Notes: generated from the sequence alone by a model not told the origin. Shown: positions 4,315-44,744, numbered from the stretch's first letter. The stretch is 64,000 nt of DNA from Pectinatus brassicae (GCF_014201835.1 NZ_JACHFH010000007.1:1-64000), one strand, 5' to 3'. A program made the numbers and translations.

Positions 4315-5253
4315 ATGTCAGCAAATGTAGAAACAATGTTTTATACGAGAGTAGCACCATGGCATGGACTTGGTGTTCGTGTAGAATCAGCTTTAAATTC
4401 AACGGAAGCTATTGAACAATCAGGGCTTAACTGGAATGTAATTCAGCGTCCCATTATGACGGATACTTATACTACAATTCCAGGTTATAAAGCTAATATT
4501 AGGGATATTGATGAAAAAGTTCTTGGTGTAGTTACTGACCGCTATAAGGTTGTCCAAAATTCAGAAGCATTTGCATTTACAGATGCTTTATTAGGCGAAG
4601 GGGTACGTTATGAAACAGCAGGGGCTTTGCAAGGTGGTCGTAAGATTTGGCTACTTGCTAAACTTCCAGATAAATACATTATTGAGGGAGAACAAATTGA
4701 GCCATATCTTGTATTTAGCAGCTCGCATGATGGTAATGGTGCTATTAAAGTAGCAATGACTCCTGTAAGGGTAGTTTGTCAAAATACACTTAATATGGCA
4801 TTGTCTTCAGCTAGACGTATGTGGTCAACTGTGCATGTAGGTAATTTGGTTAATAAAATGGATGATGCACATAATACGCTATTATTAGCAGAGAAATACA
4901 TGGGTAAACTTGGAGCCGAAATTTCGCACCTATCTAAAATAAAACTGACTGATACTAAAGTCATGGAGTATATTGATATGCTGCTTCCAATGAATGATAA
5001 TCCTACTGATATTCATAAGAAAAATATAATACGGGTTAGGGAAGATATGAAGTTAAGATATTTCGATGCGCCAGATCTTAAGGGATATGTTGGCAAAAAT
5101 GCTTATCGTTTTATCTGCGCAGTATCAGATTTTGCTACACATAGCCAACCGCTTCGGGAAACTGCAAATTATAGGGAGAATGTATTTGCAAAAACGGTTG
5201 AAGGTAATCCGTTGATTGATAAAGCCTATGAACTTGTGCGCTCAGCAGGATAA
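4315..5253 (+). CDS. DUF932 phage/plasmid-like protein
   Basis: A 312-residue protein whose N-terminus (METMFYTR-type start followed by WHGLG and LNWNVIQRP) is characteristic of the DUF932 / TIGR03299 phage-plasmid family. The family is common on plasmids and prophages and is suspected to act in DNA metabolism, but its biochemistry is not settled. Start ATG 4315 follows AAGGGAGAG. It has its own terminators on either side. The next two genes form a recombination set, so the three are best read as one plasmid-like DNA-processing module. Confidence 0.8.
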   Translation: MSANVETMFYTRVAPWHGLGVRVESALNSTEAIEQSGLNWNVIQRPIMTDTYTTIPGYKANIRDIDEKVLGVVTDRYKVVQNSEAFAFTDALLGEGVRYETAGALQGGRKIWLLAKLPDKYIIEGEQIEPYLVFSSSHDGNGAIKVAMTPVRVVCQNTLNMALSSARRMWSTVHVGNLVNKMDDAHNTLLLAEKYMGKLGAEISHLSKIKLTDTKVMEYIDMLLPMNDNPTDIHKKNIIRVREDMKLRYFDAPDLKGYVGKNAYRFICAVSDFATHSQPLRETANYRENVFAKTVEGNPLIDKAYELVRSAG

Positions 5254-5275
5254 TTATATCTATAGAATCAGATTA

Positions 5276-5316
5276 AATACGGGTATGTGATAAATTGTCA
5301 CATACCCGTATTTTAT
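5276..5316 (+). terminator. Intrinsic terminator
   Basis: A perfect 15-bp stem, AATACGGGTATGTGA (5276-5290) with 5298-5312, 7-base loop, then a T-run. Ends the DUF932 gene. Confidence 0.85.
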
Positions 5317-5338
5317 TATATAAAACGAGGTGTAGCAA

Positions 5339-6280
5339 ATGACAATTATTTTAGCGTCAACTGAAAACATGCCCTATGATGAGTGGCTTAATTGGCGGAA
5401 AAAGGGGATTGGCGGGTCAGATGCTTCTGTAGTATGTGGCGTTAACCGTTATAAATCGCCTGTAGAACTTTGGATGGATAAAACAAATCAAATACCTTAT
5501 CAAGAAGCAGGAGAAGCCGCTTATTGGGGAAATCAGCTTGAATCCTTAGTTAGGACAGAATTTACCAAGAGAACTGGGATTGAAGTTAATTTAACTAAAA
5601 AGCTTTTGCAAAGTGAAGCTCATCCATTTATGTTAGCAAATTTAGATGGTGAGTGCATTCATCCAATTCATGGGAAATGTGTATTTGAAGCAAAAACAGC
5701 ATCAGCTTATAAAGTAAGTGAATGGGATGATGCCATACCAGATGAATATATGTTACAAGTTCAACATTATATGGCTGTTACTGGATATATGGGGACATAT
5801 ATTGCTGTCTTAATTGGTGGAAATACTTTTCGCTGGAAATTTATTGAACGTGATGAAGCATTAATTTCAATGTTAATTCAATTAGAATCGGACTTTTGGA
5901 AACATGTCCAAGATATTATTCCTCTGCCATTGGATGGATCAAAAGCAGCAGCTAAATTTCTTGGTGAACGATTTCCTAATAGTATATCTGCATCTAAAAC
6001 AAAATTACCAGATACAGCTATTAAATTTATACAACAATATGAAAATGCCTGTACCAATGTCAATAAATATTCAGAACAAAAGCAAGAAGCAGAAAATCAG
6101 CTAAAAAATATGTTAGGCGATAATGAAATTGGTACTGTGGACGATCGAGTTGTTGCGTGGAAAAGCATATCTCAGGAACGTTTAGATGGAAAGACCTTAA
6201 AGACTGAACATCCAAGACTTTATAAAAAATATGCAAATAAAACATCATACCGACGCTTTTCCATAAAAGCGGCTATGTAA
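5339..6280 (+). CDS. YqaJ-family phage-type exonuclease
   Basis: A 313-residue member of the lambda-exonuclease-like YqaJ family, which resects double-stranded DNA 5'-3' to load a recombinase. Visible motifs in order: WLNWRKKGIGGSDA near residue 15-30, GNQLESLVR, Asp103 in NLDGE, the E-x-K pair Glu117/Lys119 in FEAKTA, and QVQHYMAVTG. These are the expected PD-(D/E)xK metal ligands, so the enzyme should be active. The C-terminal 90 residues include a coiled segment. AGGTG precedes ATG 5339. The next gene starts 14 bases later and probably encodes the functional partner. Confidence 0.85.
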   Translation: MTIILASTENMPYDEWLNWRKKGIGGSDASVVCGVNRYKSPVELWMDKTNQIPYQEAGEAAYWGNQLESLVRTEFTKRTGIEVNLTKKLLQSEAHPFMLANLDGECIHPIHGKCVFEAKTASAYKVSEWDDAIPDEYMLQVQHYMAVTGYMGTYIAVLIGGNTFRWKFIERDEALISMLIQLESDFWKHVQDIIPLPLDGSKAAAKFLGERFPNSISASKTKLPDTAIKFIQQYENACTNVNKYSEQKQEAENQLKNMLGDNEIGTVDDRVVAWKSISQERLDGKTLKTEHPRLYKKYANKTSYRRFSIKAAM

Positions 6281-6294
6281 AAGGGAGAATTATT

Positions 6295-7071
6295 ATGAAT
6301 ACGGAAAAATTAAAAGATAAACTAGGGGATAAATTACAGGCTTTGCAGGAACCTAAGCAAGAAATAGCTAGTTTAACTAAGCCAAATACGACAATAGTTC
6401 CGATTGATTCTAACTATATAGCATTAACAAATAATGCGTTAGATATTATCAAGGAGAATTTAAAGAATCAACCATTATCAGTTCAACTCTTTGATATTGT
6501 TAAGTCCCCGTCTGGTGGTGCAACTTCATTTACTGTACCGGGGTTATCTGGAGATGAAATATATAAAGAATTAACAGGTATTGTACTTGATTATGCTACA
6601 CCTCGTGCTTATTGGGATACTCCTGATCCAGTAGAAGGTACGCCACCAGTATGCTATAGCCACGATAGCTTGATGTCATATGAAGGGAAACCTTGTAAGC
6701 ATTGCCCGTTTAATGATTTTGGTTCAAAAGATGGCGAGTCCAATGCTAAGGCTTGCAAGGAATTTGTAATGATATTCCTTTTACGCCCAGATAATATAAT
6801 GCCAATTATTATTAGGGTTCCAGTAACAAGTAAATTGATTTTCCAGCGTTATATGACAAGGTTAATTGGAAAAATGATGCCATTATCTGGAGTGGTTACA
6901 AAAATAACATTAGATAAAACAACCAATAAAACAGGGCAGCCCTATTCGCTATATAATTTTGAGGCCGTTAGCATCCTTAGTTCAGAAGAAAGTGCGAAAG
7001 CTAGAACTTTTGGTAAACAATTTATGGATATAGTTAACGCTGCTGAACTTAATATTCAGGAAGCTAGTTAA
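6295..7071 (+). CDS. Unknown four-cysteine partner of YqaJ exonuclease
   Basis: A 258-residue protein in the same transcript as the exonuclease, in the slot where a RecT or Erf annealing protein is often found. I do not recognise it as RecT. It has a possible zinc site, Cys120, Cys134, Cys137 and Cys154 (C-x13-C-x2-C-x16-C), between two folded halves. The C-terminal half carries a beta-strand pattern that could be an OB-like fold. By position it could bind single-stranded DNA or anneal strands; this is inference. Start ATG 6295 follows AAGGGAGAA. Confidence 0.65.
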   Translation: MNTEKLKDKLGDKLQALQEPKQEIASLTKPNTTIVPIDSNYIALTNNALDIIKENLKNQPLSVQLFDIVKSPSGGATSFTVPGLSGDEIYKELTGIVLDYATPRAYWDTPDPVEGTPPVCYSHDSLMSYEGKPCKHCPFNDFGSKDGESNAKACKEFVMIFLLRPDNIMPIIIRVPVTSKLIFQRYMTRLIGKMMPLSGVVTKITLDKTTNKTGQPYSLYNFEAVSILSSEESAKARTFGKQFMDIVNAAELNIQEAS

Positions 7072-7088
7072 TGTGATAGTTGAATAGA

Positions 7089-7122
7089 AAATAGATGGGG
7101 GTTATCCTGTCTATTTTTTTAT
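7089..7122 (+). terminator. Probable intrinsic terminator
   Basis: AAATAGA (7089-7095) pairs with TCTATTT (7110-7116) across a 14-base loop, followed by TTTT. It would end the exonuclease transcript. Confidence 0.5.
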
Positions 7123-7567
7123 ATATTTATTAGCAATAAATGGTGATCTAAATGAATTTTATTGAGGTGTACAATATAGAATTATTACTTAAAAAGTAAT
7201 TAAATCTTTTAAATATGATGGGTAAAAGTTCTAGTTGCTCATAGCATAATATTTAATATATCTATAGTAATAATATATCCTTTTAATAGTAGAAGATATG
7301 AAATAGATAAAGTGGTAATATTATTTATATTATTAGAGTGAAAATTTGGCTTTATAAATTAATATTAGTGTAACAAGAAAGGATTTGTCATGTAGGAATT
7401 ATTATTTATTATATAAAGCATATACATATAAGTAAAAAAGAATAGATCAATAAAAGTTTACTGGGAATAGTAATAAGTAGCTATGCAATGAGAATAACAC
7501 GATGATAATAGAAAATATGATAGAAAAAATACAAGAAATAGTTGTAATATAGATTGGAGGAATTAAA
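7123..7567. other. AT-rich non-coding gap before rep-like gene
   Basis: About 445 bases, extremely AT-rich, with no supported ORF. I saw no clear iterons or direct repeats. Its position directly upstream of the candidate Rep gene makes it a possible replication or control region, but nothing in the sequence proves this. Confidence 0.3.
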
Positions 7568-8560
7568 ATGATTTATGCACCACATACATTCGAGCTTTCG
7601 CTTATACTTAATACAAGTGATTTTGGCAAATGGAAAAATAATGCATATAAAAATGCAGAAGGAAATTATCGGTTATATAGGAAAAATAATATTATTCGTG
7701 ATGATGCTTTTAAAGATAAAGGTGTTAAAATTGAATATCATGACAATACTTTCAAGAAAAAAATTAAACTTATAGTAAATCCCACTAAGTTGCTTGGAGG
7801 TAATGATATAAAAAAATTATGGAAACCTAATAACGGTAATATATTGGAGCTTTTACGTAAAGTGAAAATATATGTTAAGGCATATTTTGACGCTGAATAT
7901 AAATTGGGCGATTTTAAATTAACCCGTATAGATTTTACTGTGAATATTAATGTTGGCGATAAAAAAAGCGTGTCTGCCTATATAAAAGTATTACATAACA
8001 TTGGAAAAGTTAAAGGTTTCAAACCGAAGTATGACAAAAATGATAAAAAGATTGATAATGATTTGAGTTTTGATTTGGACGGCAATTCCAATGGAATTGA
8101 ATTTACAGCGTACGATAAAGAGGCTGCATCTGAGAAAAAAGAAGCAAAAGGAATTTTACGTGCAGAAGTACGGTTAAAAAAACAGAAAGCTATTTGCAAG
8201 TATACGGATGAAACCGCTACAGCAAAACAAATAAAACAATTGGCAAAAAATAGTGAAAAAATATTTTTAGAGATTTTTTCGCATATAGTTCCATATGGGA
8301 ATTATTATAAAAAAAATAAAGCTGTGCAACTAATTGAGGATAATATTTCCAAACAAAAGTCTAGAACAAAGATGATTCAATTGATAGAACTTATACCGAA
8401 AAAGAAATCACTATATCTTGCCCAAAAAGAAATGAACGATAGAAATATTGATAAAATAATGATAATGTTTGCAGAAATCAACGTATCACCCGTGACTATT
8501 AGTAAGAGGCAGAAAATAAGTTCCCTTAAAAATTTATATTCGTATTTAATTGAAGAATAA
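7568..8560 (+). CDS. Candidate rolling-circle replication initiator
   Basis: A 330-residue basic protein. The spaced blocks LTRIDFTVNI (about residue 119-128) and IEFTAYDK followed by GILRAEVRLKK (about 178-205) recall the Rep_trans-type (pT181/RepC-like) initiation factors, where an R-x-D strand and a Y-D-K...R-x-E pattern form the catalytic core. I cannot name the nicking tyrosine with certainty; Tyr184 in AYDK is the obvious candidate. TTGGAGGAATT precedes ATG 7568. A strong hairpin starts 10 bases after its stop, as expected if the origin lies beside rep. It could instead be an unrelated phage protein. Confidence 0.45.
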   Translation: MIYAPHTFELSLILNTSDFGKWKNNAYKNAEGNYRLYRKNNIIRDDAFKDKGVKIEYHDNTFKKKIKLIVNPTKLLGGNDIKKLWKPNNGNILELLRKVKIYVKAYFDAEYKLGDFKLTRIDFTVNINVGDKKSVSAYIKVLHNIGKVKGFKPKYDKNDKKIDNDLSFDLDGNSNGIEFTAYDKEAASEKKEAKGILRAEVRLKKQKAICKYTDETATAKQIKQLAKNSEKIFLEIFSHIVPYGNYYKKNKAVQLIEDNISKQKSRTKMIQLIELIPKKKSLYLAQKEMNDRNIDKIMIMFAEINVSPVTISKRQKISSLKNLYSYLIEE

Positions 8561-8687: not shown

Positions 8688-8708
8688 ACTTGCAAGGGGG
8701 TGGTGACT

Positions 8709-9917
8709 ATGATTATAAGGCAATCTTATATTGATCAAATTACACCATTTATTGATATGCCGTTAGTAAAGATTCTAACTGGGGTTCGCCGTTGTGGAAA
8801 GTCAACCATTATGCTGCTGCTCATGGAAGAACTTAAACAAAGAGGGATATCTGAAAACTGTATAGTACGTTTTAACTTTGATACCTTGGAATGGCAGAAT
8901 GCTGATGCGAAACAAGTATTTGAGGTTATCAAAGGTAAACTTGTTACAGATGAACGCACATATTTGTTTTTGGATGAGATTCAAGAAATAGAACATTGGG
9001 AACGGCTGGTCAATACCTTCATGGAGGAAGGTGAATACAATGTTGATATTTTTGTCACCGGGTCTAATTCTAAAATGATGTCCTCGGAAATATCGACTTA
9101 TTTGACCGGACGGTATGTTTCGTTTCGCGTATATCCGCTTTCTTTTGCTGAGTATTTAGATTTTAGGAAAGCATATGGTGAGATGCAAGACCTCTCCAAG
9201 GAATTTTTACGTTATATTGAATATGGCGGCTTTCCTGCCGTTCATATTAAACAGCTTACGCCAGACGAAGCTTATACCATCGTGAAAGATATTTATAACA
9301 CTACTATTTTTACTGATATTGTTAAGCGCAACCAAATTCGGAAGGTTGACCAGTTAGAGCGTATAGTGAAGTATGCTTTTGATAACATTGGCAATACCTT
9401 TTCGGCGAATTCTATAAAAGGTTTTTTGACAAGCCAGAGCCGGAGTATAGATGTAGAGACGGTCTATAATTATCTTTCGAAGCTAGAAAGCGCCTATATC
9501 TTGAATCGGTGCTCACGTCAGGATTTACAAGGTAGAGAGATTTTGAAAACGCAAGAGAAGTTCTATTTGGCGGATAATGCATTTAAGCATGCAGTATTAG
9601 GATATAAGCAGGCTGATATATCGCAAACTCTTGAAAATATTGTATACTTAGAGCTTCGGCGGCGCGGGTATGATGTTTATGTAGGTAAACTTGACACCAA
9701 AGAGATTGATTTTGTTGCTGAAAAGCAAGGTAAGAATATCTATGTTCAGGTTGCCTATCTTTTAACCGATAAAAAAACACAGGAACGGGAATTTGGTAAT
9801 CTGCTTCAAATCGAAGATAATTTCCCTAAGTTTGTGGTCAGCATGGATGAGGTGGATATGTCTCAAAAGGGAATTATCCATTTGAATATCAAAGATTTCT
9901 TGTTGAATAATTGGTGA
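8709..9917 (+). CDS. AAA_14 / DUF4143 ATP-binding protein
   Basis: A 402-residue STAND/AAA-like ATPase of the widespread family with an N-terminal AAA_14 domain and C-terminal DUF4143. Walker A is GVRRCGKST (25-33), Walker B YLFLDEIQEIEHWE (near 80), and a sensor-like VTGSNSKM follows. The C-terminal region has the nuclease-like core EIDFVAEKQGKNIYVQV, in which the usual E-x-K is Q-V-A, so cleavage is doubtful. ATG 8709 is preferred over the GTG at 8700 because the ribosome site AAGGGGG ends at 8700. The family is common in anaerobes with no settled role. It is a single-gene unit beside the defence-like operon. Confidence 0.85.
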   Translation: MIIRQSYIDQITPFIDMPLVKILTGVRRCGKSTIMLLLMEELKQRGISENCIVRFNFDTLEWQNADAKQVFEVIKGKLVTDERTYLFLDEIQEIEHWERLVNTFMEEGEYNVDIFVTGSNSKMMSSEISTYLTGRYVSFRVYPLSFAEYLDFRKAYGEMQDLSKEFLRYIEYGGFPAVHIKQLTPDEAYTIVKDIYNTTIFTDIVKRNQIRKVDQLERIVKYAFDNIGNTFSANSIKGFLTSQSRSIDVETVYNYLSKLESAYILNRCSRQDLQGREILKTQEKFYLADNAFKHAVLGYKQADISQTLENIVYLELRRRGYDVYVGKLDTKEIDFVAEKQGKNIYVQVAYLLTDKKTQEREFGNLLQIEDNFPKFVVSMDEVDMSQKGIIHLNIKDFLLNNW

Positions 9918-10314: not shown

Positions 10315-11760
10315 ATGCAAAAAAAAGCGTACGATACAATTTTATCGGACTATGTTGATGCGGAATCTGCGGCTAAAGGCAGTGGTTTTGAACCATACCG
10401 TTATAAATGCGCTTGCTGTTGGGAAGAAGTGCATTTGTGTGCTGCAGACAGTCGTAATCAAGCTACTCACTTCAGACATCGTAATGGTAACAATAATGTT
10501 GAATGTGAGAATTATCTTGGCAATCGCAACGCTATTATTAACAGTGCACTTTTTCATCGTAATGTCAGGGATAAAATTGAGTTCTACTTTTCGAACTCTA
10601 CGAAACTGTTCAGTATTGGTGTAAAGTTTGATGCTGATGAGATTTCGACTTATGAACAAGACGAAGCAAGTCTTCAGGTTAAGACTTCGTATACAGCAAA
10701 GCCGTTGATTTCCATTCCTATTAGAAGTAGCAGGTTTTACCCGAATATTTCAGAACTTATTCCTATTAGTAAGTTTTCATGGGAGTACTATGTTTCTTCT
10801 TCGAATGATTCCAAACCACACAAATGTGAACTATTTAGGAAAGATAAGCGTGGGTATTTATACCCATCTTTCTTTAAAATTCAAGCTCAAGGTGATGGTG
10901 GTGATTTCAAAGCAAAGCTTATCCGTAGTGACACCTTATATACGAACACTCCATATTTGATAGTATTTACGCACTTGTATCATCCTATGAGTTTTCAGCA
11001 AGATGTGAAAGTAGGAGAAGTAATTAGCTTTAAGACTATGGACAGGGATTTTGCTGGTGTAGTTGTAGCTTTTACTCGGAAAACAGCAAGCGTAGAACAC
11101 CAACTTGGATTGTGGAAATACAAACTGGAAACAAATGAGACACTAACGTTGGTATGGCCTCCTTCTTCACTGGTTAATGAATCAATGCTGATTTGTACTG
11201 ATTACGCGTATCTGTTCTCAACGTTTGAACTGCAAGCACATGGCAATATAAACGTGCCTTCTGATAACATTGAAAGGTTTGAAAATGGAATTTCAAAGGT
11301 TTCAATAAACGGTCGAACCAAAATATACAAGAAAAACGCAGAGCTTGTGCTTGAAAAGTGCAAAGAAACATCGTATGAATACGATGTCATTTCAGTTGCA
11401 CAAGAGACAGCAAAAAACTATGTTGCGTCAGATGTCAGTGCATTTCTCTTTAATCGTTCGGGTGTATCTCCAATGAGCAAGGGAATGTCTGTCTTACTGA
11501 CACACTGTAGTGAAGTGCGGCATTATTCATATGGATATCTTGATAGTATTGTCACTGTAGCAAACGATACGGTTACTTTGACTGGTAACCGTCTTCTTCA
11601 GGATATACTCATGTATTATAAAAGGACGGAAGCATTCAACTGGGCTGGCTATGAATCGCTCGAACTTAGTCATACCGCTTTTCAGTATATTGAAAGTTGC
11701 GAAAAAACAGGGTTGATAAACTCTGTGGCAAAACACTTTATTGAGGAGGGGTGGATATGA
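10315..11760 (+). CDS. Unknown protein with CoiA-like zinc finger
   Basis: First gene of the helicase-methylase operon, 481 residues. The N-terminus has Cys32-x2-Cys35, then HFRH (His52, His55) and Cys64, the pattern of the zinc finger at the front of CoiA-like proteins, some of which are nucleases. The remaining 400 residues look beta-rich and I recognise no catalytic motif. AAAGGA lies about 10 bases before ATG 10315; the upstream frame is closed by TAG at 10258. Its stop overlaps the next start (ATGA), showing translational coupling. In the operon it may recognise DNA or sense infection; this is inference only. Confidence 0.7.
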   Translation: MQKKAYDTILSDYVDAESAAKGSGFEPYRYKCACCWEEVHLCAADSRNQATHFRHRNGNNNVECENYLGNRNAIINSALFHRNVRDKIEFYFSNSTKLFSIGVKFDADEISTYEQDEASLQVKTSYTAKPLISIPIRSSRFYPNISELIPISKFSWEYYVSSSNDSKPHKCELFRKDKRGYLYPSFFKIQAQGDGGDFKAKLIRSDTLYTNTPYLIVFTHLYHPMSFQQDVKVGEVISFKTMDRDFAGVVVAFTRKTASVEHQLGLWKYKLETNETLTLVWPPSSLVNESMLICTDYAYLFSTFELQAHGNINVPSDNIERFENGISKVSINGRTKIYKKNAELVLEKCKETSYEYDVISVAQETAKNYVASDVSAFLFNRSGVSPMSKGMSVLLTHCSEVRHYSYGYLDSIVTVANDTVTLTGNRLLQDILMYYKRTEAFNWAGYESLELSHTAFQYIESCEKTGLINSVAKHFIEEGWI

Positions 11761-13343
11761 ATTATCTTCCAATACTAACCGAAGCTGAAATCAAGTATAT
11801 TTGTTCGGTCATCTACATCCAAGATTCGGTATGGTATTTTAAGCGTTATCCCAAAGACTTTGCAAAAATCATGCCGGGTTTTAGACCAACAAGTCTAAAA
11901 AATCAGGAGCAAGTAAGTGCGTTGCTGTATAGAAGCCGTAATCAGGCTTTTATTTCCTCGTTTATCGAAAAGCACATAAGCCGTTGGCTTGACGAAATAC
12001 AAGATGAAATAACTCTGAAAACTGATAAAGGTGAAAGTAAAGAGTCAGCTTGGATGCAGACTTTACCATTTTGCTTTTTTGTGGACAACATCAGTATATT
12101 TTTTAAGCTGATTGGCGACGAACAACCAGAACAGTATGTTTCTCTTATTAGTGCAAGTATAAAAAGAATTAGAGATTTAGATATCTCGCACAAAAGGATT
12201 AAGACAACGCTGAGCAACAAGAAATCCGAAGTAATGCGGCTTGAGGATGATATCAGGTGTGTTCAATCTGAGTTAGATAAATCCAGCAAGAAGCTTATTG
12301 AACATTCATCCGAGATAAAAGCACTCAAACGCACCTGTGCTGATATTGAAAAGCTAGAAGGTATTGTTTGCGCCCGCGAGCAAGAACTTGATATCTTGAA
12401 AAAGAAGGCTCAAGAGCGCGATGAATATATACAAAAGCTGAATGACGAACTGTCCGCTTCCAAAGATGCGCAGCTACAACTTGAAATAAAAATAAAAGAA
12501 GAAATCAAGCAGCAACGAATAGCCGAATCGATAGAACAAGCAGCCTCTTTAAAGCCAAGAGGCCCAAAGGACATCGAAGAGTTTAAAGAGTTTTTAGAGT
12601 ATAATTTAGAGAGCCTTGGAGTGGCTACGAACGCTGAGTATTATTTTCTGTTAAAAGAGCATATATGCAAAATTTTGTTTCAAGGAAAGCCCATTATTAT
12701 TTGTAGGGCTGCAGGTATGGTGCTAATGAGGTGTGTTGCAAACACGCTGGTTGGTTCGGCAAATGTGGATACTCTTTCGTTTGTAACGGACATCTCGGAG
12801 CAGCAAATACACGGGTTTTTATCCACTAAAAACCGTATAGTTTGCTTAGATAACTTCATTGGAAATTATAATGAGACGACCTTGCTAACAATTTGTGATA
12901 AGCATAGAAATAAGATTATTTTCTTAACTACCGTCTATGAAAGAACGCTCTTTTATATTCCAGAAGAGCTTTTAAAATATTGTATTTACCTTAATCTTAA
13001 CCGGATTGAGGGATTTACCCATGACCATGCTTTGACAGAAGCCCCGTCCACTATAGATGAAATCGACGCTTCATACCCTACAATTACTCCCGATATTCGT
13101 TGGTCATCGCTTCTTAAAGAGATACTCGACGAATTGGGCGTGTGCAGTGCTTTGTCTACATATAAGAGTTCGTTAATCTCAAACGAAGCAAGTTTATGCT
13201 GTTTATTAGCATTCGATGTCCTTCCTTTCTGCGTGGATGTTCTTAAGATTTCTCCATTCAGCGTCTCGGAGCGTCTGAACAAGTATGCGGGAGATAAAGG
13301 TAGATGTTCACATAAGGGATTATTCAAGAGGTGGTTTGTGTGA
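11757..13343 (+). CDS. Coiled-coil protein with degenerate ATPase-like domain
   Basis: A 528-residue second gene of the operon. Order: helical N-terminus (1-125), long coiled coil (about 128-262, heptads rich in Lys/Glu/Leu), then a C-terminal domain resembling a P-loop fold: GKPIIICRAAG (about 310-320) stands where Walker A would be but lacks the GK(S/T) signature, IVCLDNF with Asp365 fits Walker B, and KIIFLTTVYERT fits sensor 1. It is probably a nucleotide-binding relic or a structural subunit. ATG 11757 is chosen over GTG 11751 because GAGGAGGGG lies just upstream and ATGA overlaps the previous stop. No family recognised. Confidence 0.7.
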   Translation: MNYLPILTEAEIKYICSVIYIQDSVWYFKRYPKDFAKIMPGFRPTSLKNQEQVSALLYRSRNQAFISSFIEKHISRWLDEIQDEITLKTDKGESKESAWMQTLPFCFFVDNISIFFKLIGDEQPEQYVSLISASIKRIRDLDISHKRIKTTLSNKKSEVMRLEDDIRCVQSELDKSSKKLIEHSSEIKALKRTCADIEKLEGIVCAREQELDILKKKAQERDEYIQKLNDELSASKDAQLQLEIKIKEEIKQQRIAESIEQAASLKPRGPKDIEEFKEFLEYNLESLGVATNAEYYFLLKEHICKILFQGKPIIICRAAGMVLMRCVANTLVGSANVDTLSFVTDISEQQIHGFLSTKNRIVCLDNFIGNYNETTLLTICDKHRNKIIFLTTVYERTLFYIPEELLKYCIYLNLNRIEGFTHDHALTEAPSTIDEIDASYPTITPDIRWSSLLKEILDELGVCSALSTYKSSLISNEASLCCLLAFDVLPFCVDVLKISPFSVSERLNKYAGDKGRCSHKGLFKRWFV

Positions 13344-14359
13344 AAAACGATCTCATACAAGCCATGTCAGTCGACATGAATATTCCTCGTTTTCAAAACG
13401 AGTCTGATGAGTCGTTCGTATACAGGCTATGCTACTCTGCATTAGGACAATGGTGTTTAAGCATCGCAAAAAATGTAAAGGGAATCAGTATAGGGACAAC
13501 AAAGAATAATCAGACAATAGTACTTAACGATTTATTGGCAAGGTACACAGAACTATTCCCTGATATCTCCAAAAAATTTGTTGATACGAGCAATCAACAG
13601 CGTAATATTTCAGTTTCTATGCGAAGAGTTTACGAAGAAACTGGTTATTTACTGACTGATGAGGACAAACACAATAGATTAGCTAACTTTGGAAGGAGCA
13701 TAAAAATTGGACAGCAGGCATTGTTTTTTGGTCTTCCACAAAAGCCCTATACTGTTAACGGATTAGGTGTGTTTTCGTCACCGTCAGAATATGTGATAGC
13801 AGTAAATAACTTTCTCATTAGGGATAGTCTGACCTGTGAAGAATACTTCCAAGCACAATTTGACGCGATAGACTTTTATGACAGGGACATTGATGTTCAA
13901 GAATTGGAGTTCTTCAATCCACTATCGAAGAATGTTCCATCTTTGTCATGGAATAAGAATCTGGAAACAGATTGCTCTGTTGCTCGAAAAACGGAAACGG
14001 GTCCCTTCTATCGGATGATGAGAACATCCGAAGGAATACTATTTGCGGATGAACCCGTAGAGGTTCATCCTGACAGTTTTATTTCGCACGAATATAGGCG
14101 TCTTTATTTCGCAATGAAAGCGCACTATGGAAACTCGGTGAAAGCAACGATTTCAAAGCTTGATAACAAATATTCGAGAATACGGGTAGGTGGACACTTA
14201 CCTTACCGAGAATACTATTTCTTGCTGCTTTTAGCTTGGCCTGAGAGTACGGCTTTTGATAAAGTTAACTTCATTATACCAAACAGTTTATTAGGAGAAA
14301 CATATACTATGTTAGAACACATCGGTATCGAAGTAAAAGGAGGTCGCATCCATGAATAG
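13340..14359 (+). CDS. Unknown protein of helicase-methylase operon
   Basis: A 339-residue protein with no domain I can name. GTG 13340 is chosen because it overlaps the previous stop (GTGA) with AGAGGTGG placed 6 bases upstream; an upstream GTG at 13331 lies within the ribosome site. The protein looks soluble, mixed alpha/beta, with a Tyr/Phe-rich C-terminal third. Its stop overlaps the helicase start by eight bases, so it should be made in step with the helicase. Its presence between the coiled-coil protein and the helicase suggests an accessory subunit. Confidence 0.7.
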
Positions 14360-17300
14360 CGTAAATGGAGTTCAACAGTACTATCAAGCAATTCGTGATA
14401 GGCTTAGAAACTACATAAAATCAGATTATCTGGCTAACAGTGAAACTTTACTGCTATATGTTGATGATTTGTTGGGAGAATTTTGCTCGGAGTATACAAA
14501 CATTGCTCGTGAGCCATATATTGAAACATCAGCCTCGTATAAGAAAGTTACGGATGGGATAAAAAACTCTTCACTCATTGAGCAGGGAGTGAAGGATTCG
14601 TTGCTCAAGCTCATCCAAGAGAAGCTTGGAATTTTTTCTGACCCGTTTGAGCATCAGGTTTGTGCTCTGGAATGTGCTATGGCAGGACGAGACCTATTTG
14701 TTTCCACCGGTACTGGCTCAGGTAAGACCGAGTGCTTCTTGTGGCCAATAATAGCAAAGTGTTTTGATGAAGCGAAAAATCGTCCAGCGCAATTCCAGCA
14801 AGAGGCGGTTCGAACGCTGATTATATATCCGATGAATGCCCTTGTTTCCGATCAATTGGCGCGTTTTAGAAAAATCATTGGTGGGGAAAATTTCAGGAAG
14901 ATATTTACCACGGATACTCACGCAACCCGTATTCCTCATTTTGGTATGTATACTGGAAGAACACCCTACTCGGGAGATGCGAAAACGGCAAGTAGTAAAG
15001 AACTGGCAATGACTTTCCGTAAAAACTATCTCGTAGATGCAAATGCAGATGCCGAAACTCAACGTAGGCAACTAAACAATGTTAATGGTCTGAAGAGCAT
15101 CAATAAGTATCCAGCTAGATTCGGAGAAACCGGACTTGAGTCATTTATCAAAAATCTGGATCAGAATATTCATAAGCCATCGCCATATGACGCTGAGTTC
15201 ATAACAAGATTTGAGATGCAAAATTGCCCTCCGGACATCCTGATTACTAACTACTCAATGTTAGAGTATATGCTTATGAGGCAACGCGAAGCTAAAATCT
15301 GGAATAAAACGAAGGAATGGATTGATGCTTCAACAGACAACAGATTGCAAATAGTGCTGGATGAAGCCCATATGTATCGAGGTTCTGCTGGTGGAGAGAT
15401 TGCGCTGTTGTTGGAGCGTCTATTTTATCGCTTGGGAATCACTAAGGATAGGGTGCAGTTTATTCTTACAACTGCAAGTATGCCGCAAGGTAAACAAGAA
15501 GCAATAAATGATTTTTACTTTGGATTGACGGGAAAAGATGCTTCGGATTGCGAATTCTTGTTCGGTACCAAAGAGCCTGTTCCAGATAAACTAGAAATAA
15601 AAACGGACATTGAAGCATTGGCTTCTATAAGTACAGCCCAAGTGCAAGGTGAAATTGCTTTAGCCACCAGAATCAGGACATTTGCGAAGGTGGTATTTAA
15701 GTATAACATACCCGACTATTACACCCCACTACAGACACAAGAATGGCTATACGACAACCTTCCCAAATATGAGGCGTTTGTTGTTTTGAACAAGTTGTGT
15801 CGTGATGGAGCGAAATCCTATAGTAAAATTAAAGAAGCCTTATTTGGTAATGCAGAGAACGGAGAGAAAGCTCTTGATGCACTCTTGGTAGTGGTTTCAC
15901 TTGCCGCAAAAGACGGAAATATTCTGTTTCCCGTGAGGTTGCATATGTTCCTTCGCGGTTTGCAAGGCTTGTACGCATGCTCCAATCCAAAGTGTACGTG
16001 TGCAAAACATTCTGAAAGCGAGAAGTTGCCGCTTGGAAAGGTTATATCCATACCCAAGGATAAATGTAAATGCGGAGGAAAAGTTTACGAACTTTTCAAC
16101 CACATTAAGTGTGGTGCTTTGTACTTTCGGGTATATGTTCAAAAAACTGAGGGACAACCTTACTGGTATGTTTTTCCTCAGAGAGGCTTAGATGGTGATG
16201 CAAATTCTCTACAAGAATTGTTACTATACGTTGTTCCCCAAAAATATCAGAAAGGCAAGAATGACAAGATTGGTTCCCTTGACCCATTTACAGGTAAACT
16301 ATATTTATCTCAACAGGAAGATGAGACTTTACTTGATGTTGTATACTACAGTAAAAGCGAAAAAGGAAAAAAGACAGATGCTAAGGGAAAACCTTTTAAT
16401 TTTGGCGTCTGCCCAAAATGCAAGAAGCCAATGTCCTTGAAGAAGCCTGTTGATTTATCCACCAAGGGGAATATACCATTCTATAATCTCACTAAAGCGC
16501 AGTTTGAACTACAACCGCCCAAATCCGATTTGATAAACCAAGGGAGGAAGGTCTTACTTTTTTCTGACTCGCGCCAGAATGCTGCAAAGTTAGCGTTAGA
16601 CTTATCTAAATCATCTGATGCTGACGCGTTTCGTCAGGCAGTTATGCTTGCATCGCTTTTACTGGAGGTTGATGGTAAAGAGCATTCTTTGGCAGACCTT
16701 TATCCAGCGTTTTTGGATGTATGCACTCAGAATAGTCTTACGTTCTTTAGCGGGAAGAGTAAAGTGAAATTCATCGATGATTTACGCACATTTGCAATAA
16801 AGAAGAAAAGAGCAGCAGATCATAACCGTATTTTTGATTATTCGTCAGTTGCTCGCGACTACCAGTCAATGCCTGATGACTATTACGAACAAATACTAAC
16901 TTTCTTTACAGAAAGCCCCCGTTCTTTTAAGGACATTGGTATTGGGTTTTTAGCACCGATATCCGAATTGCTTGAAAACTGCATTTTTGACCTAGAAGAT
17001 GAAGGGATTGAGCTTCATCAAGAGGATGTGTTCAGACTATTGGTTCTTCTCTTCTGGGATGTCATGGATGATACAGCAGCGCTTGGAGAAACTATTCCGG
17101 ATGATGTGCGTAAAGGATTACCCGGACGTAGCAAAACGCAAGATTTTGGGCTTGGGTTTGAGTTTTCTGCTAATTTAGATAAAGGGCTGATGCAACGAAT
17201 TCAAGAGTTGTTTTGCCTTGATGACATAAGCACGGAAAAAATCGTAGGTAAGATACGTGATGAGTTCTTTGGTGCTGCCTCTAATAATCATTACTATATC

Positions 17301-19571
17301 AAACTTAGTGCCGTGAAAATACAATTGACTGGCACTGACTTTACGTGGTATCGGTGTGTAAAGTGCGGAAAGCTGTCACCATATAAAATCGGTGATTATT
17401 GTGGGGCGTGCTTTGTTTCAACGGATTTAAAGCCAATTACTAATTTAGAATTGACTCGCTTTGATTTTTGGAGAATTCCAGTTCTGAATGCTCTTAATAA
17501 AATTGAAAGCATTCACACGATAGATACAGAAGAACATACAGCGCAACTATCTCATAAAGAAATTCGTAGTGACACTTGGAGCCGTACTGAAAGGTATGAA
17601 ATGAGATTCCAAGACATCAATGCAGGTGAACACGGCGAAGATGCGATTGATGTCTTAAGCTGCACAACCACAATGGAAGTAGGTATTGATATCGGATCGT
17701 TGACTGCGGTTGGGCTTCGCAATATACCGCCTATGCGTGAAAACTATCAGCAGAGAGCAGGGCGTGCGGGACGTAAAAATGCAGGCATTTCAACAATCGT
17801 CACTTATGCTTCTGGAGGTATTCATGATAGCCATTATTTTTTGCATCCAGATGAAATGATTTCCGGTTCGCCGCGCAAACCTTGGATTGACCGTGATAAT
17901 CCGAAGATAAAGCAACGTCATATCAATATGCTTGCTCTCAACGGATTCATGTCTACGCCAATAATGAATGGACAGTATGATGGCATTGTCGATATCGGGA
18001 TAATAACATTTTGTGAACAGTATGGAGAGAATTTCATAGAGTATTCCCATTCATTCGAGAAAGAGTCAGGACTATCAACGGTAGCCACAATTACACACTT
18101 TCGTGAAATTAGCCTTAATGTATTAGCCGAAGGAAAGCGTGACGAATACATCAACAACGATAAAGAAACGTCTGCGTTTGATGTCTTTTATCGTGAAGGG
18201 TTCATACCTTCTTACTCTTTCCCAAAGAATGTTGTGAGATTCTTTGTCGAAAAGGAATCGGAGCGCGGCAAGAATGCTCCTCGTGATATTCAATACGCAC
18301 CTGAACGAGATATAGCTATTGCTCTGAGTGAATATGCCCCAGGTAGGTTTGTTACCATAGATAAGAAGATATTCAAAAGTGGAGGTATTTACGCGAATCC
18401 TCGTCCGAGGGGATTTGAAGCTAATCAGGCTGAGTTCTACTTTAAGAACACTGATTATTACAAGGATATTTATATATGTTCTGAGTGTAACTGGTTCGGA
18501 CTTGAAAAAGCGGATGAGAAACGCACGACTTGTCCTTATTGCGGTGCAGCAATTGTTAAAAACAAGACACTGCGGCCATGGGGATTCTCACCGGTTAAGG
18601 GAGATGAAGTTAAGTATGAGGATGAGGATGAGCAATACACCTATGCTGAAGCCCCTTACTATTCCTATGTTCCTGAAGACACGCAGATGAGAACCTTTAA
18701 AAGGAGTCGTATTCGTTTTGTTAATCTTCCGGATAGAAAAGTATTGACCGTTAACATGGGAAAAAGTAAGAATGGCTTTAATATTTGTAGAAAATGTGGA
18801 GGAGCAGAGGTAGCTAACCCGAATGGAAATGGGACATTTTCGTTTTCACAACCTTACCATGATAATCATCCTGTTTGTCACCACGATGGGACTGTTGATA
18901 CAAACATATTTTTGGGATATGAGTTCTTAACAGATATGTTTATGCTTGATATCTCATATGATTCAGTAAGATTGGTGGGTAGTAATGGTGAGGAAGAAAA
19001 GAGCATCTTACGGGCAGCAGTAACTACTTTGCACGAGGCACTCAAAAAGGCTGTATCATTAGTTTTGGATATTGATTACAACGAAATCAGTGGTGGATGG
19101 CGGCCAAGGAAAATAAACAGCAGTGACCCACACATAGAGATGTTTTTTTACGATAACCTAACAAGTGGCGCAGGATACTCATCGCTAATTGGCTCTATTC
19201 TTGATAAGGTTTTCGTTAGTGCAAGAAGCATTCTTTCCGAATGCGAATGCTCTCGTTCTTGCAAGAACTGTCTTGACAACTATTGGAATCAACGATATCA
19301 TCAGTTGTTTGATAGAAACTTAGGACTACAGTTGCTTGATTTTGCTCAATTTGGCAAGTTGCCAGACGAATACGATATGAGGAAGCAAGCAGGATTACTT
19401 GTGCCACTACAAAAGTTAATTTCAGAAGATGGAACTCCGAAACAGATAACGTTCGAAGTTGTCCCTGCTCTTCTGAAAAAAACGGACAACACGAGGTCAA
19501 AAATCTACCTTAATCCTTATGATTTGAACGATTGGTTGCCAAACACATTTATGACATATAGAAATTTATAA
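14352..19571 (+). CDS. Giant DEAH helicase with DUF1998-type C-terminus
   Basis: A 1739-residue superfamily 2 helicase. Motifs: Walker A GTGSGKT with Lys125; [35 protein letters not shown] 337-340 followed by [32 protein letters not shown]; and QQRAGRAGR at 1133-1141. Cysteine pairs suggest zinc ribbons near 543-574, 1002-1005 and 1376-1400. The C-terminal cluster Cys1631, 1633, 1637 and 1640 ([10 protein letters not shown]) is the MZB/DUF1998 hallmark. Helicase and DUF1998 in one giant chain, and the DEAH context, are closest to DruE of Druantia; DISARM splits them into DrmA and DrmB. AGGAGG precedes ATG 14352. Likely the motor of an anti-phage system. Confidence 0.85.
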
Positions 19572-19584
19572 GCAGAGGTATTGT

Positions 19585-20427
19585 ATGGCTAAGTCATTTT
19601 CGCCGCTTCGGTATCCAGGTGGCAAATTTAAAATATACAAGAAGGTCAAGAATCTAATTATTGCAAAAGGCTTTGACAATAGAATGTATGTGGAGCCTTT
19701 TGCTGGTGGTTTTGGGATAGGCATTAGCTTGTTGTGCGAAAAAGTCGTTCCGTCGGTTATATTGAACGACTTTGACTCACATATTTATCATTTTTGGCAT
19801 TCTGTATTGAATGACACGGATAGCTTGCTACGTTTAATTAAGGACACACCGATAACTATAGAAGAACGAGAAAAGCAAAAGCAGAACTATAGAGATTTAG
19901 ACGCTGACACTTTAACCGATGGGTTTGCCACGTTGTTTCTAAACAGGGTGAATTTCTCTGGAGTACTTAAAGGCGGGCCCATTGGTGGGTTAGACCAGTC
20001 GGGAACTTATAAGATTGATTGCAGATTTAATAAAGAGGATATAAGCCGCAGAATCGAGGTTATCGCACAACTAAAAAACAAGATTAAGCTATACAACAAA
20101 GATGCAGGTTATCTGATTAGAATGCATCTGATGAAAATGAAAACACCTATGTTTCTTAACATTGACCCTCCATACGTTATTAAAGGTAGTCAACTGTACA
20201 CTAACTTTTTTACAGAAGGAGACCATCTCAATTTGCAGAGAATTATTGTTAAGTATCTAGATGCTGCCTATCCGTGGATAATGACATATGATAATTGCTC
20301 TCTTGTTAGGGACTTATATAGGCGCTTTCATATGCAGGAATATGGCATTAACCATAACGCAGGGGGAACTGTACTGGGGAAGGAGATCGTAATTACGAAC
20401 ATTCTTTCTGATGGATTTTTATGGTAA
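19585..20427 (+). CDS. D12-class adenine-N6 DNA methyltransferase
   Basis: A 280-residue Dam-type (alpha, D12 class) methylase. RYPGGK near the N-terminus and EPFAGGFG (37-44) form the S-adenosylmethionine site; DPPY (194-197) is the catalytic motif for adenine N6. The protein is complete in length for the class. It starts 13 bases after the helicase stop and ends the operon. Its recognition site cannot be read from sequence; GATC is common in the class but not assured. In this setting it most likely marks host DNA so that the helicase machinery spares it. Confidence 0.9.
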   Translation: MAKSFSPLRYPGGKFKIYKKVKNLIIAKGFDNRMYVEPFAGGFGIGISLLCEKVVPSVILNDFDSHIYHFWHSVLNDTDSLLRLIKDTPITIEEREKQKQNYRDLDADTLTDGFATLFLNRVNFSGVLKGGPIGGLDQSGTYKIDCRFNKEDISRRIEVIAQLKNKIKLYNKDAGYLIRMHLMKMKTPMFLNIDPPYVIKGSQLYTNFFTEGDHLNLQRIIVKYLDAAYPWIMTYDNCSLVRDLYRRFHMQEYGINHNAGGTVLGKEIVITNILSDGFLW

Positions 20428-20664
20428 GTGAGTAAAATCAAAACTTTATGTAATTACTGTGATCACTTTGATGACAAGTGACAAAAGGATACAGAGTTAC
20501 TGCAATATTCGATAATAGTAATCTATTAAAATCGCTGTATGTTAAAATTGATATAATGGTTAAATAGCTAGATGAATTTTTCGATTTATAAATTGGGGGA
20601 GAGTTAATGTATGAGTAAGTGGAGAGATAGAGTACAAGTAAGTTCGCAAAAGTAAAAAAAGGAA

Positions 20665-20801
20665 AAGCCATCGAAACTCCGAAACAGGTAAGTGTCTAGC
20701 AAACCAATAAGGAGTGAAAATCGATGGCTTACCAAAATTCTACCGTATCTTTTGAAAAAATGCTATTGAAATTTATAACCGATGAAGATCCAATACGATA
20801 A
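20665..20801 (+). pseudogene. Transposase N-terminal remnant
   Basis: A 25-codon ORF (20724-20801) follows GGAGTGAAAATCG and starts MAYQNSTVSFEKMLLKF, which I read as the N-terminus of an IS256/mutator-type transposase cut off after about 23 residues. Upstream, AAGCCATCGA (20665-20674) is repeated inverted at 20721-20730. The coding part runs straight into recombinase sequence, so the insertion was lost by deletion. The family is a recollection, not a search result. Confidence 0.4.
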
Positions 20802-36697: not shown

Positions 36698-36787
36698 TGG
36701 CGGAGAGTGAGGGATTCGAACCCTCGGTACAGTTTCCCGCACACACGCTTTCCAGGCGTGCTCCTTCAACCACTCGGACAACTCTCC
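36698..36787 (-). tRNA. tRNA-Ser (anticodon GGA)
   Basis: A 90-base class II tRNA. The acceptor stem GGAGAGT pairs with ACTCTCC, followed by G and an encoded CCA. The anticodon arm CACGC-CTGGAAA-GCGTG gives anticodon GGA, reading UCC and UCU. A long variable arm typical of serine tRNA and a T arm with GTTCGAATC are present. It has its own promoter and terminator. Confidence 0.97.
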
Positions 36788-44437: not shown

Positions 44438-44514
44438 GGGAAGCGAATAACACTCATTTTTATATGGAACGGACTTGTATTGTCTTATTATAATTACAAA
44501 AATAAAACGCCACA

Positions 44515-44625
44515 ATCTTTTTCCATCCAGACTATAACTGTCGGCTTCGGAATTACACCGAATCTGCCAAAAAGGCTCGCGGGCTTTACCGCCGGTAGGG
44601 AATCACACCCTGCCCCAAAGACTGC
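44515..44625 (-). promoter_or_regulatory. FMN riboswitch (RFN element)
   Basis: On the minus strand the conserved RFN pieces appear in order: GGGGCAGGGTG, ATTCCCTACCGGCGGTAAA, GCCCGCGAGC, a variable stem, ATTCCGAAGCCGACAG and TAGTCTGGATGGAAAAAGAT. It controls ribD-ribE-ribBA-ribH, most likely by transcription termination. Confidence 0.95.
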
Positions 44626-44744
44626 TAATCAATCACTTTCTTTAATTATACAATATTATAAAAAAAAATCAAGACCAAATTTATTAGTAAAAAGATAATG
44701 ATTTATTATATAATATATTTGCGTCTATATTGTATTAATTATAA

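Follow-up and report, generated by a model that had tools for sequence, protein, structure and literature searches.

A Druantia type I-like operon of Pectinatus brassicae that lacks DruA and carries a D12 adenine methylase gene after druE

Type I Druantia is described in the literature as DruABCDE. In E. coli FREC5 and on P. putida pKF715A, druA lies directly before druB, and no methylase is annotated after druE. The DruE of type I is reported to have a C-terminal Vsr nuclease domain that is inactivated (PMC12458937). The DruE of type III prefers long DNA with exposed single-stranded DNA, and partner proteins were proposed, from the work on type III, to set the activation of DruE (PMC13192584). 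Type II Druantia is DruMFGE, and DruM is a methylase according to the literature.

We analyzed a stretch of 64,000 nucleotides from Pectinatus brassicae (NZ_JACHFH010000007.1:1-64000), which we call the window. It contains five consecutive genes on one strand:

10315..11760, + strand: druB-like gene, 481 amino acids, identified by PADLOC's DruB1, profile comparison, and a zinc ribbon
11757..13343, + strand (ORF from 11751, ATG at 11757): putative druC-like gene, about 528 amino acids, identified by position, architecture, and profile comparison
13340..14359, + strand (ORF from 13331, GTG at 13340): druD-like gene, about 339 amino acids, identified by PADLOC's DruD1
14352..19571, + strand: druE-like gene, 1739 amino acids, identified by PADLOC's DruE1, Pfam, and motifs
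19585..20427, + strand: M, predicted D12 adenine methylase, 280 amino acids, PF02086 with an intact DPPY motif

The genes are tightly packed. druB and druC overlap at ATGA (11757-11760), druC and druD overlap at GTGA (13340-13343), druD and druE overlap by 8 bases (14352-14359), and a gap of 13 bases (19572-19584) separates druE from M. The ORFs, the overlaps, and the gap agree with the initial annotation, which had described a five-gene operon with exactly these junctions. That annotation named a lack of conservation of the gene set in other genomes as a refutation, and our survey of gene neighborhoods found the five genes, in the same order, in other genomes. Because the identical five genes in the identical order recur in related loci, a chance arrangement is excluded. 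That the operon is a Druantia system resembling type I, with the layout B-C-D-E-M, is well supported. Given its family membership, the operon would be expected to protect against phages.

PADLOC's model for DruE1 (PDLC00013) matches the helicase with 1961 bits across residues 4-1736, which is the full length. In Pfam it matches PF00270, PF00271, and, at the C terminus, PF09369 (the MrfA Zn-binding/DUF1998 domain MZB, E = 1.2e-12). The Walker A motif GTGSGKT (at 120), DEAH (at 337), and motif VI, QRAGRAGR (at 1134), are intact, and there are seven CxxC pairs; the initial annotation had described a 1739-residue DEAH helicase with a DUF1998-type cysteine cluster. The closest solved chains are 9tu7, 9wae, and YprA (6znp). 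By its motifs, DruE is predicted to be a YprA/MrfA-family SF2 helicase that is competent for ATPase activity. No nuclease domain was found above Pfam's cut-off in the five proteins, which fits with the inactivated Vsr domain in the DruE of type I (PMC12458937); the part of DruB past the zinc ribbon could hold a cryptic one.

The three genes before druE had been proposed to encode an accessory trio that might define a new type. This is not supported, as they correspond to the DruB, the DruD, and, putatively, the DruC of type I. In PADLOC, the first protein matches DruB1 (PDLC00003, E = 2.9e-168) and the third matches DruD1 (PDLC00008, E = 1.9e-156). The DruB and DruD of E. coli are matched by other DruB1 and DruD1 models, so we also checked the relationship to DruA-bearing type I systems separately, with profile comparisons of the window's clade to the proteins from E. 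coli, P. putida, and a DruA-bearing locus (L056). These comparisons gave pairwise E-values of 1.8e-8 over 284 columns for DruB, 1.1e-5 over 477 columns for DruC, and 1.3e-6 over 276 columns for DruD.

The signal for DruB comes mainly from an N-terminal, CoiA-like zinc ribbon of Cys and His residues, in which C32, C35, H52, H55, and C64 are invariant or nearly so; the part after the zinc ribbon gives no match by itself (E = 0.13). The corresponding Pfam family, CoiA_N (PF25164), is found in the DruB of E. coli (E = 1.9e-8). For the product of druC, PADLOC's DruC1 gives a weak hit (E = 0.0015) that is confined to the coiled coil, and the C-terminal domain by itself reaches E = 0.08 in the profile comparison. 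So, while the assignments of DruB, DruD, and DruE are firm, the putative assignment of DruC rests on its position, its layout, and a moderate full-length profile match.

Sequence searches of the PDB found no matches for DruB, only coiled coils for DruC, and nothing convincing for DruD. The AlphaFold2 model of DruC (pLDDT 87, pTM 0.53) has N-terminal helices, a single long coiled-coil helix (127-262), and a C-terminal alpha/beta domain. When we searched the PDB with this fold, the best matches were mostly AAA+ proteins (RuvB, RavA, RFC, and Bcs1), none better than E = 0.02. The position of the Walker A lysine is not conserved in the alignment of DruC, so the C-terminal domain appears to be an AAA+-like domain that lacks the Walker A motif and is probably inactive. 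For DruD, the AlphaFold2 model is confident (pTM 0.87), and a fold search against the PDB gave no hits at E ≤ 0.001. Relatives of DruD were not confirmed in viral contigs (0 of 48 pattern matches), and plasmids gave no match to DruD.

DruA is missing. The initial annotation reported no DUF4338 protein in the operon, and a search with PF14236 extends this to the whole genome, with no match at E ≤ 10. This also excludes a hidden or displaced druA elsewhere in the genome. Similarly, DruA is absent from 26 of the 27 genomes that encode a close relative of this DruE; in the remaining genome, it lies on contigs other than the operon's. Because DruA is missing, we consider the operon to be a DruA-less variant rather than a standard type I system.

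In place of DruA at the front, the operon has M at its end. As the initial annotation had it, the last gene encodes a D12 adenine methylase (PF02086, MethyltransfD12, E = 4.1e-19). Its best match in PADLOC is PD-Lambda-5_B (E = 4.4e-99), and it matches MTase_II as well. The catalytic motif DPPY is intact, and PGGK, EPFAGG, and DPPY are invariant among 23 aligned D12 proteins. We predict that M is a D12-class (Dam-like) N6-adenine DNA methylase.

To see how often M accompanies the other genes, we scanned genomes for DruE, with one genome per species, and obtained 27 loci; the scan used peptide patterns from the window's protein and is biased towards its near relatives. One locus (L006) ends inside druE, and the other 26 could be assessed past the stop codon of druE. 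An intact M directly follows druE, in the same orientation, in 22 of these 26. The window and L057, which came to light separately in a sample of 398 genomes from the phylum, bring the number of loci with intact M to 24, and the gap between druE and M has a median of 13.5 nt (range 3-131). When we clustered the flanking ORFs, the five genes of the operon were common to 25-28 loci, and every other cluster was found in at most 4 loci. Because none of the other flanking genes is common to many loci, B-C-D-E-M is the cassette. The M-bearing clade of DruE has members that are labeled as Bacillota, Bacteroidota, Thermotogota, and Thermodesulfobacteriota.

Shortly before the operon (8700-9917, + strand) is a gene for an AAA_14/DUF4143 ATPase, which matches PADLOC's candidate family PDC-S01 (E = 2e-155). 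We considered it as a member of the system and rejected it, as just one other locus (L009) has a relative. Further upstream (4315-8560, + strand) lie genes of phage type, namely DUF932, an exonuclease resembling YqaJ/RecE, a protein from a PHROG with no assigned function, and a weak match to a replication protein. These suggest that a mobile element lies beside the operon. Downstream, about 170 bases (20626-20794) recur at several places in genomes of the same genus, with up to 97% identity; by eye, this looks like a transposase remnant. A search for empty sites in four genomes of the same genus found only short repeat-like and partial matches. Across 116 neighboring proteins, 109 PADLOC families matched at E = 1e-20; this is a raw count in which one protein may match many families, the listed families have at most 3 members each, and we do not take it as a sign of an enriched defense island. 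The window also contains an FMN riboswitch (44511-44626, - strand) and a tRNA-Ser(gga) (36701-36787, - strand), both unrelated to the operon.

Some relatives of the operon have no methylase. Four BCDE operons (L046, L048, L049, and L051), all from the class to which the window's genome belongs, have neither DruA nor an adjacent D12 gene. Three other BCDE operons are partial (L044, L045, and L047), and the observation that M is missing covers the four loci with a complete druE. In another locus (L050), druE is interrupted by a transposase-like ORF. The bare operons are related to the window's clade by profile comparison (E = 2.9e-8 for B, 2.6e-12 for C, and 1.6e-17 for D) and likewise lack DruA, which is not found elsewhere in their genomes either, but they differ in that no D12 methylase adjoins druE. 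On the DruA-bearing branch, a PD-(D/E)XK nuclease (PF12705) directly follows druE in three relatives (L030:17369-18328, L031:15403-16548, and L056:16549-17724). This nuclease has DruA nearby in L031 and L056; in L030, an ORF resembling DruA is about 8 kb away. Another BCDE operon lies beside an EcoO109I-like restriction enzyme (PF14511) and a C5-cytosine methylase (L043:15100-17057, - strand). We do not consider this methylase to be a swapped M, as it is paired with the EcoO109I-like enzyme, and we read the two as an adjacent type II system.

DruA and M were not found together in the loci that we examined. This would allow a functional exchange, in which M, instead of marking self, would act on the infection, for example through changes to phage DNA or recruitment of the complex, and so would take over the role of DruA. 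But in E. coli and P. putida DruA comes ahead of druB, while M follows druE, no relationship of sequence or fold between the two is known, and the bare operons have neither, which implies that neither is obligatory. We consider such a takeover to be very improbable.

Does the core depend on M for the safety of its host? M is a pseudogene in two of the surveyed loci (L005 and L012) and is absent from two others (L010 and L018); in all four, the reading frames of BCDE and the helicase motifs are intact. If M were a strict antidote, as in restriction-modification, then BCDE would attack every unmethylated motif and the loss of M would be lethal. The general logic of methylase-bearing defense systems is in keeping with this, as is the replacement of M in situ, which is described below. 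Also, both of the loci with a decayed M retain an intact and unrelated D12 gene, of another lineage, upstream of druB (L005:3003-3902, + strand; L012:2565-3428, - strand), and it is possible that these substitute in trans. But BCDE is intact in L010, whose genome gave no D12 match at E ≤ 1e-5, bare BCDE operons exist, and no nuclease domain was recognized in the five proteins. M-less BCDE would be difficult to explain if M were strictly protective, unless these copies are silent, a D12 protein acts in trans, or a methylase of another class protects the DNA. A strict antidote therefore seems distinctly unlikely to us.

The phylogenies of DruE and M tell different stories. A quick tree of 36 DruE proteins places the 26 rows of the M-bearing clade, M-less L005, L006, L010, L012, and L018 among them, in a single group with full support. 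This clade adjoins the M-less BCDE clade from the window's class, and the DruA-bearing systems are on another branch; a warning about long branches makes the deep joins provisional. In the tree of D12 proteins, the window-type M proteins and that of L014 form one clade (100/100), those of L015, L020, L022, and L028 group near two viral D12 proteins, and a third group consists of that of L007 with its kin. A single clade of all M proteins is rejected (p-AU = 0.0002). Because the M proteins are not one lineage although the DruE proteins are, M was replaced in the same slot at least twice while DruE remained one clade, as counted by hand on the DruE tree. Replacement in place suggests a selected function, and it fits with a change of the target motif. 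This favors a functional role for M, possibly in setting the specificity of the system.

These trees also bear on the idea that BCDE is the defense system by itself and that M is a separate, ordinary orphan or phage-type adenine methylase that repeatedly landed, or persisted, behind druE and does not work with it. The M-less and pseudogene loci and the bare sister clade are what this idea would lead us to expect. Furthermore, relatives of the D12 proteins are common in viral contigs (348 were confirmed among 600 pattern matches), and some of the M proteins nest among them. But M keeps its side, its orientation, and its short distance to druE in 22 of the 26 loci, in a DruE clade with members from several phyla, and no other neighbor is as conserved. 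Two different D12 lineages in the identical slot would also be surprising if no selection kept a methylase at that position. Overall, we think that an orphan M is unlikely.

The explanation that we favor, with slightly more confidence than doubt, is that a type I-like BCDE core is combined with an M that provides self-marking and tuning, and that B, C, and D gate DruE. DruE would be the motor, which would load onto intermediates of phage DNA with an exposed single strand and unwind or block them, as for the DruE of type III. DruB (with its zinc ribbon), DruC (as a coiled-coil scaffold), and DruD may act together, as a complex, to activate and gate DruE. M would methylate adenines at a host-specific motif, which would make the core less likely to act on the cell's own DNA, and unmodified incoming DNA would thereby be preferred. 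Because no nuclease was recognized in the five proteins, any loss of DNA would result from blocked replication or from host nucleases. In this way, M may let the system tell its own DNA from phage DNA. M would tune the core rather than being its sole safeguard; given the genomes that lack M, most notably that of L010, where no D12 gene was detected, and the clade of bare BCDE operons, M is probably a self-mark and not a strict antidote. More tentatively, and short of an even chance, the operon might represent a methylation-gated branch of Druantia, in which a self-marking D12 methylase, swapped in situ for D12 methylases with other specificities, tells a nuclease-less helicase complex what to spare, in lineages without DruA.

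How does this system compare to those that have been named? Restriction-modification systems pair a methylase with a nuclease, and no nuclease domain was recognized in the operon at Pfam's cut-off. M's best match in PADLOC is PD-Lambda-5_B, and PD-Lambda-5_A was unmatched among the six proteins that we scanned. The initial annotation had linked the operon to both Druantia and DISARM, and the link to Druantia is supported, while the link to DISARM is not. There is some likeness to DISARM (DrmA/DrmB/methylase) and to ARMADA, in that a YprA-family helicase, of the same helicase superfamily, is found with a methylase (PMC12458937). But DrmA matches only local helicase motifs (best E = 1.4e-11, against 1961 bits for DruE1), NCBIfam's DISARM_DrmAL is far below its cut-off (E = 0.076), and the scans of the operon gave no DrmB, no BrxHII/RapA-like helicase, and no PglX-like methylase.

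Within Druantia, type II resembles the operon in that the gene for a DruE-family helicase has a methylase gene next to it. For the six proteins that were scanned, DruF, DruG, and DruM are not among the PADLOC families listed at E = 0.1. Type I, as found in E. coli and on P. putida pKF715A, has homologs of DruB, DruD, and DruE, and a putative homolog of DruC, with the gene order unchanged. The operon differs from it by lacking DruA, in the operon and in the genome, by having a D12 methylase after druE, and by a DruE that belongs to a separate, fully supported clade. So four of the five genes can be assigned, druC putatively, to a named subtype, type I, and the methylase lies outside the descriptions of type I that we found. 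Within the open literature, which was the scope of our search, no Druantia is described that lacks DruA and bears a D12 methylase. What is known, then, is the BCDE core of type I, and what appears to be new is the missing DruA together with the D12 methylase after druE. Annotation that demands DruA could miss the B-C-D-E-M branch. Nature has here removed DruA, added a methylase, and kept BCDE, and in the sister clade BCDE is retained without either of them. A comparison of the three arrangements, A-BCDE, BCDE-M, and bare BCDE, can therefore tell the core apart from what is added to it and opens the role of each part to testing.
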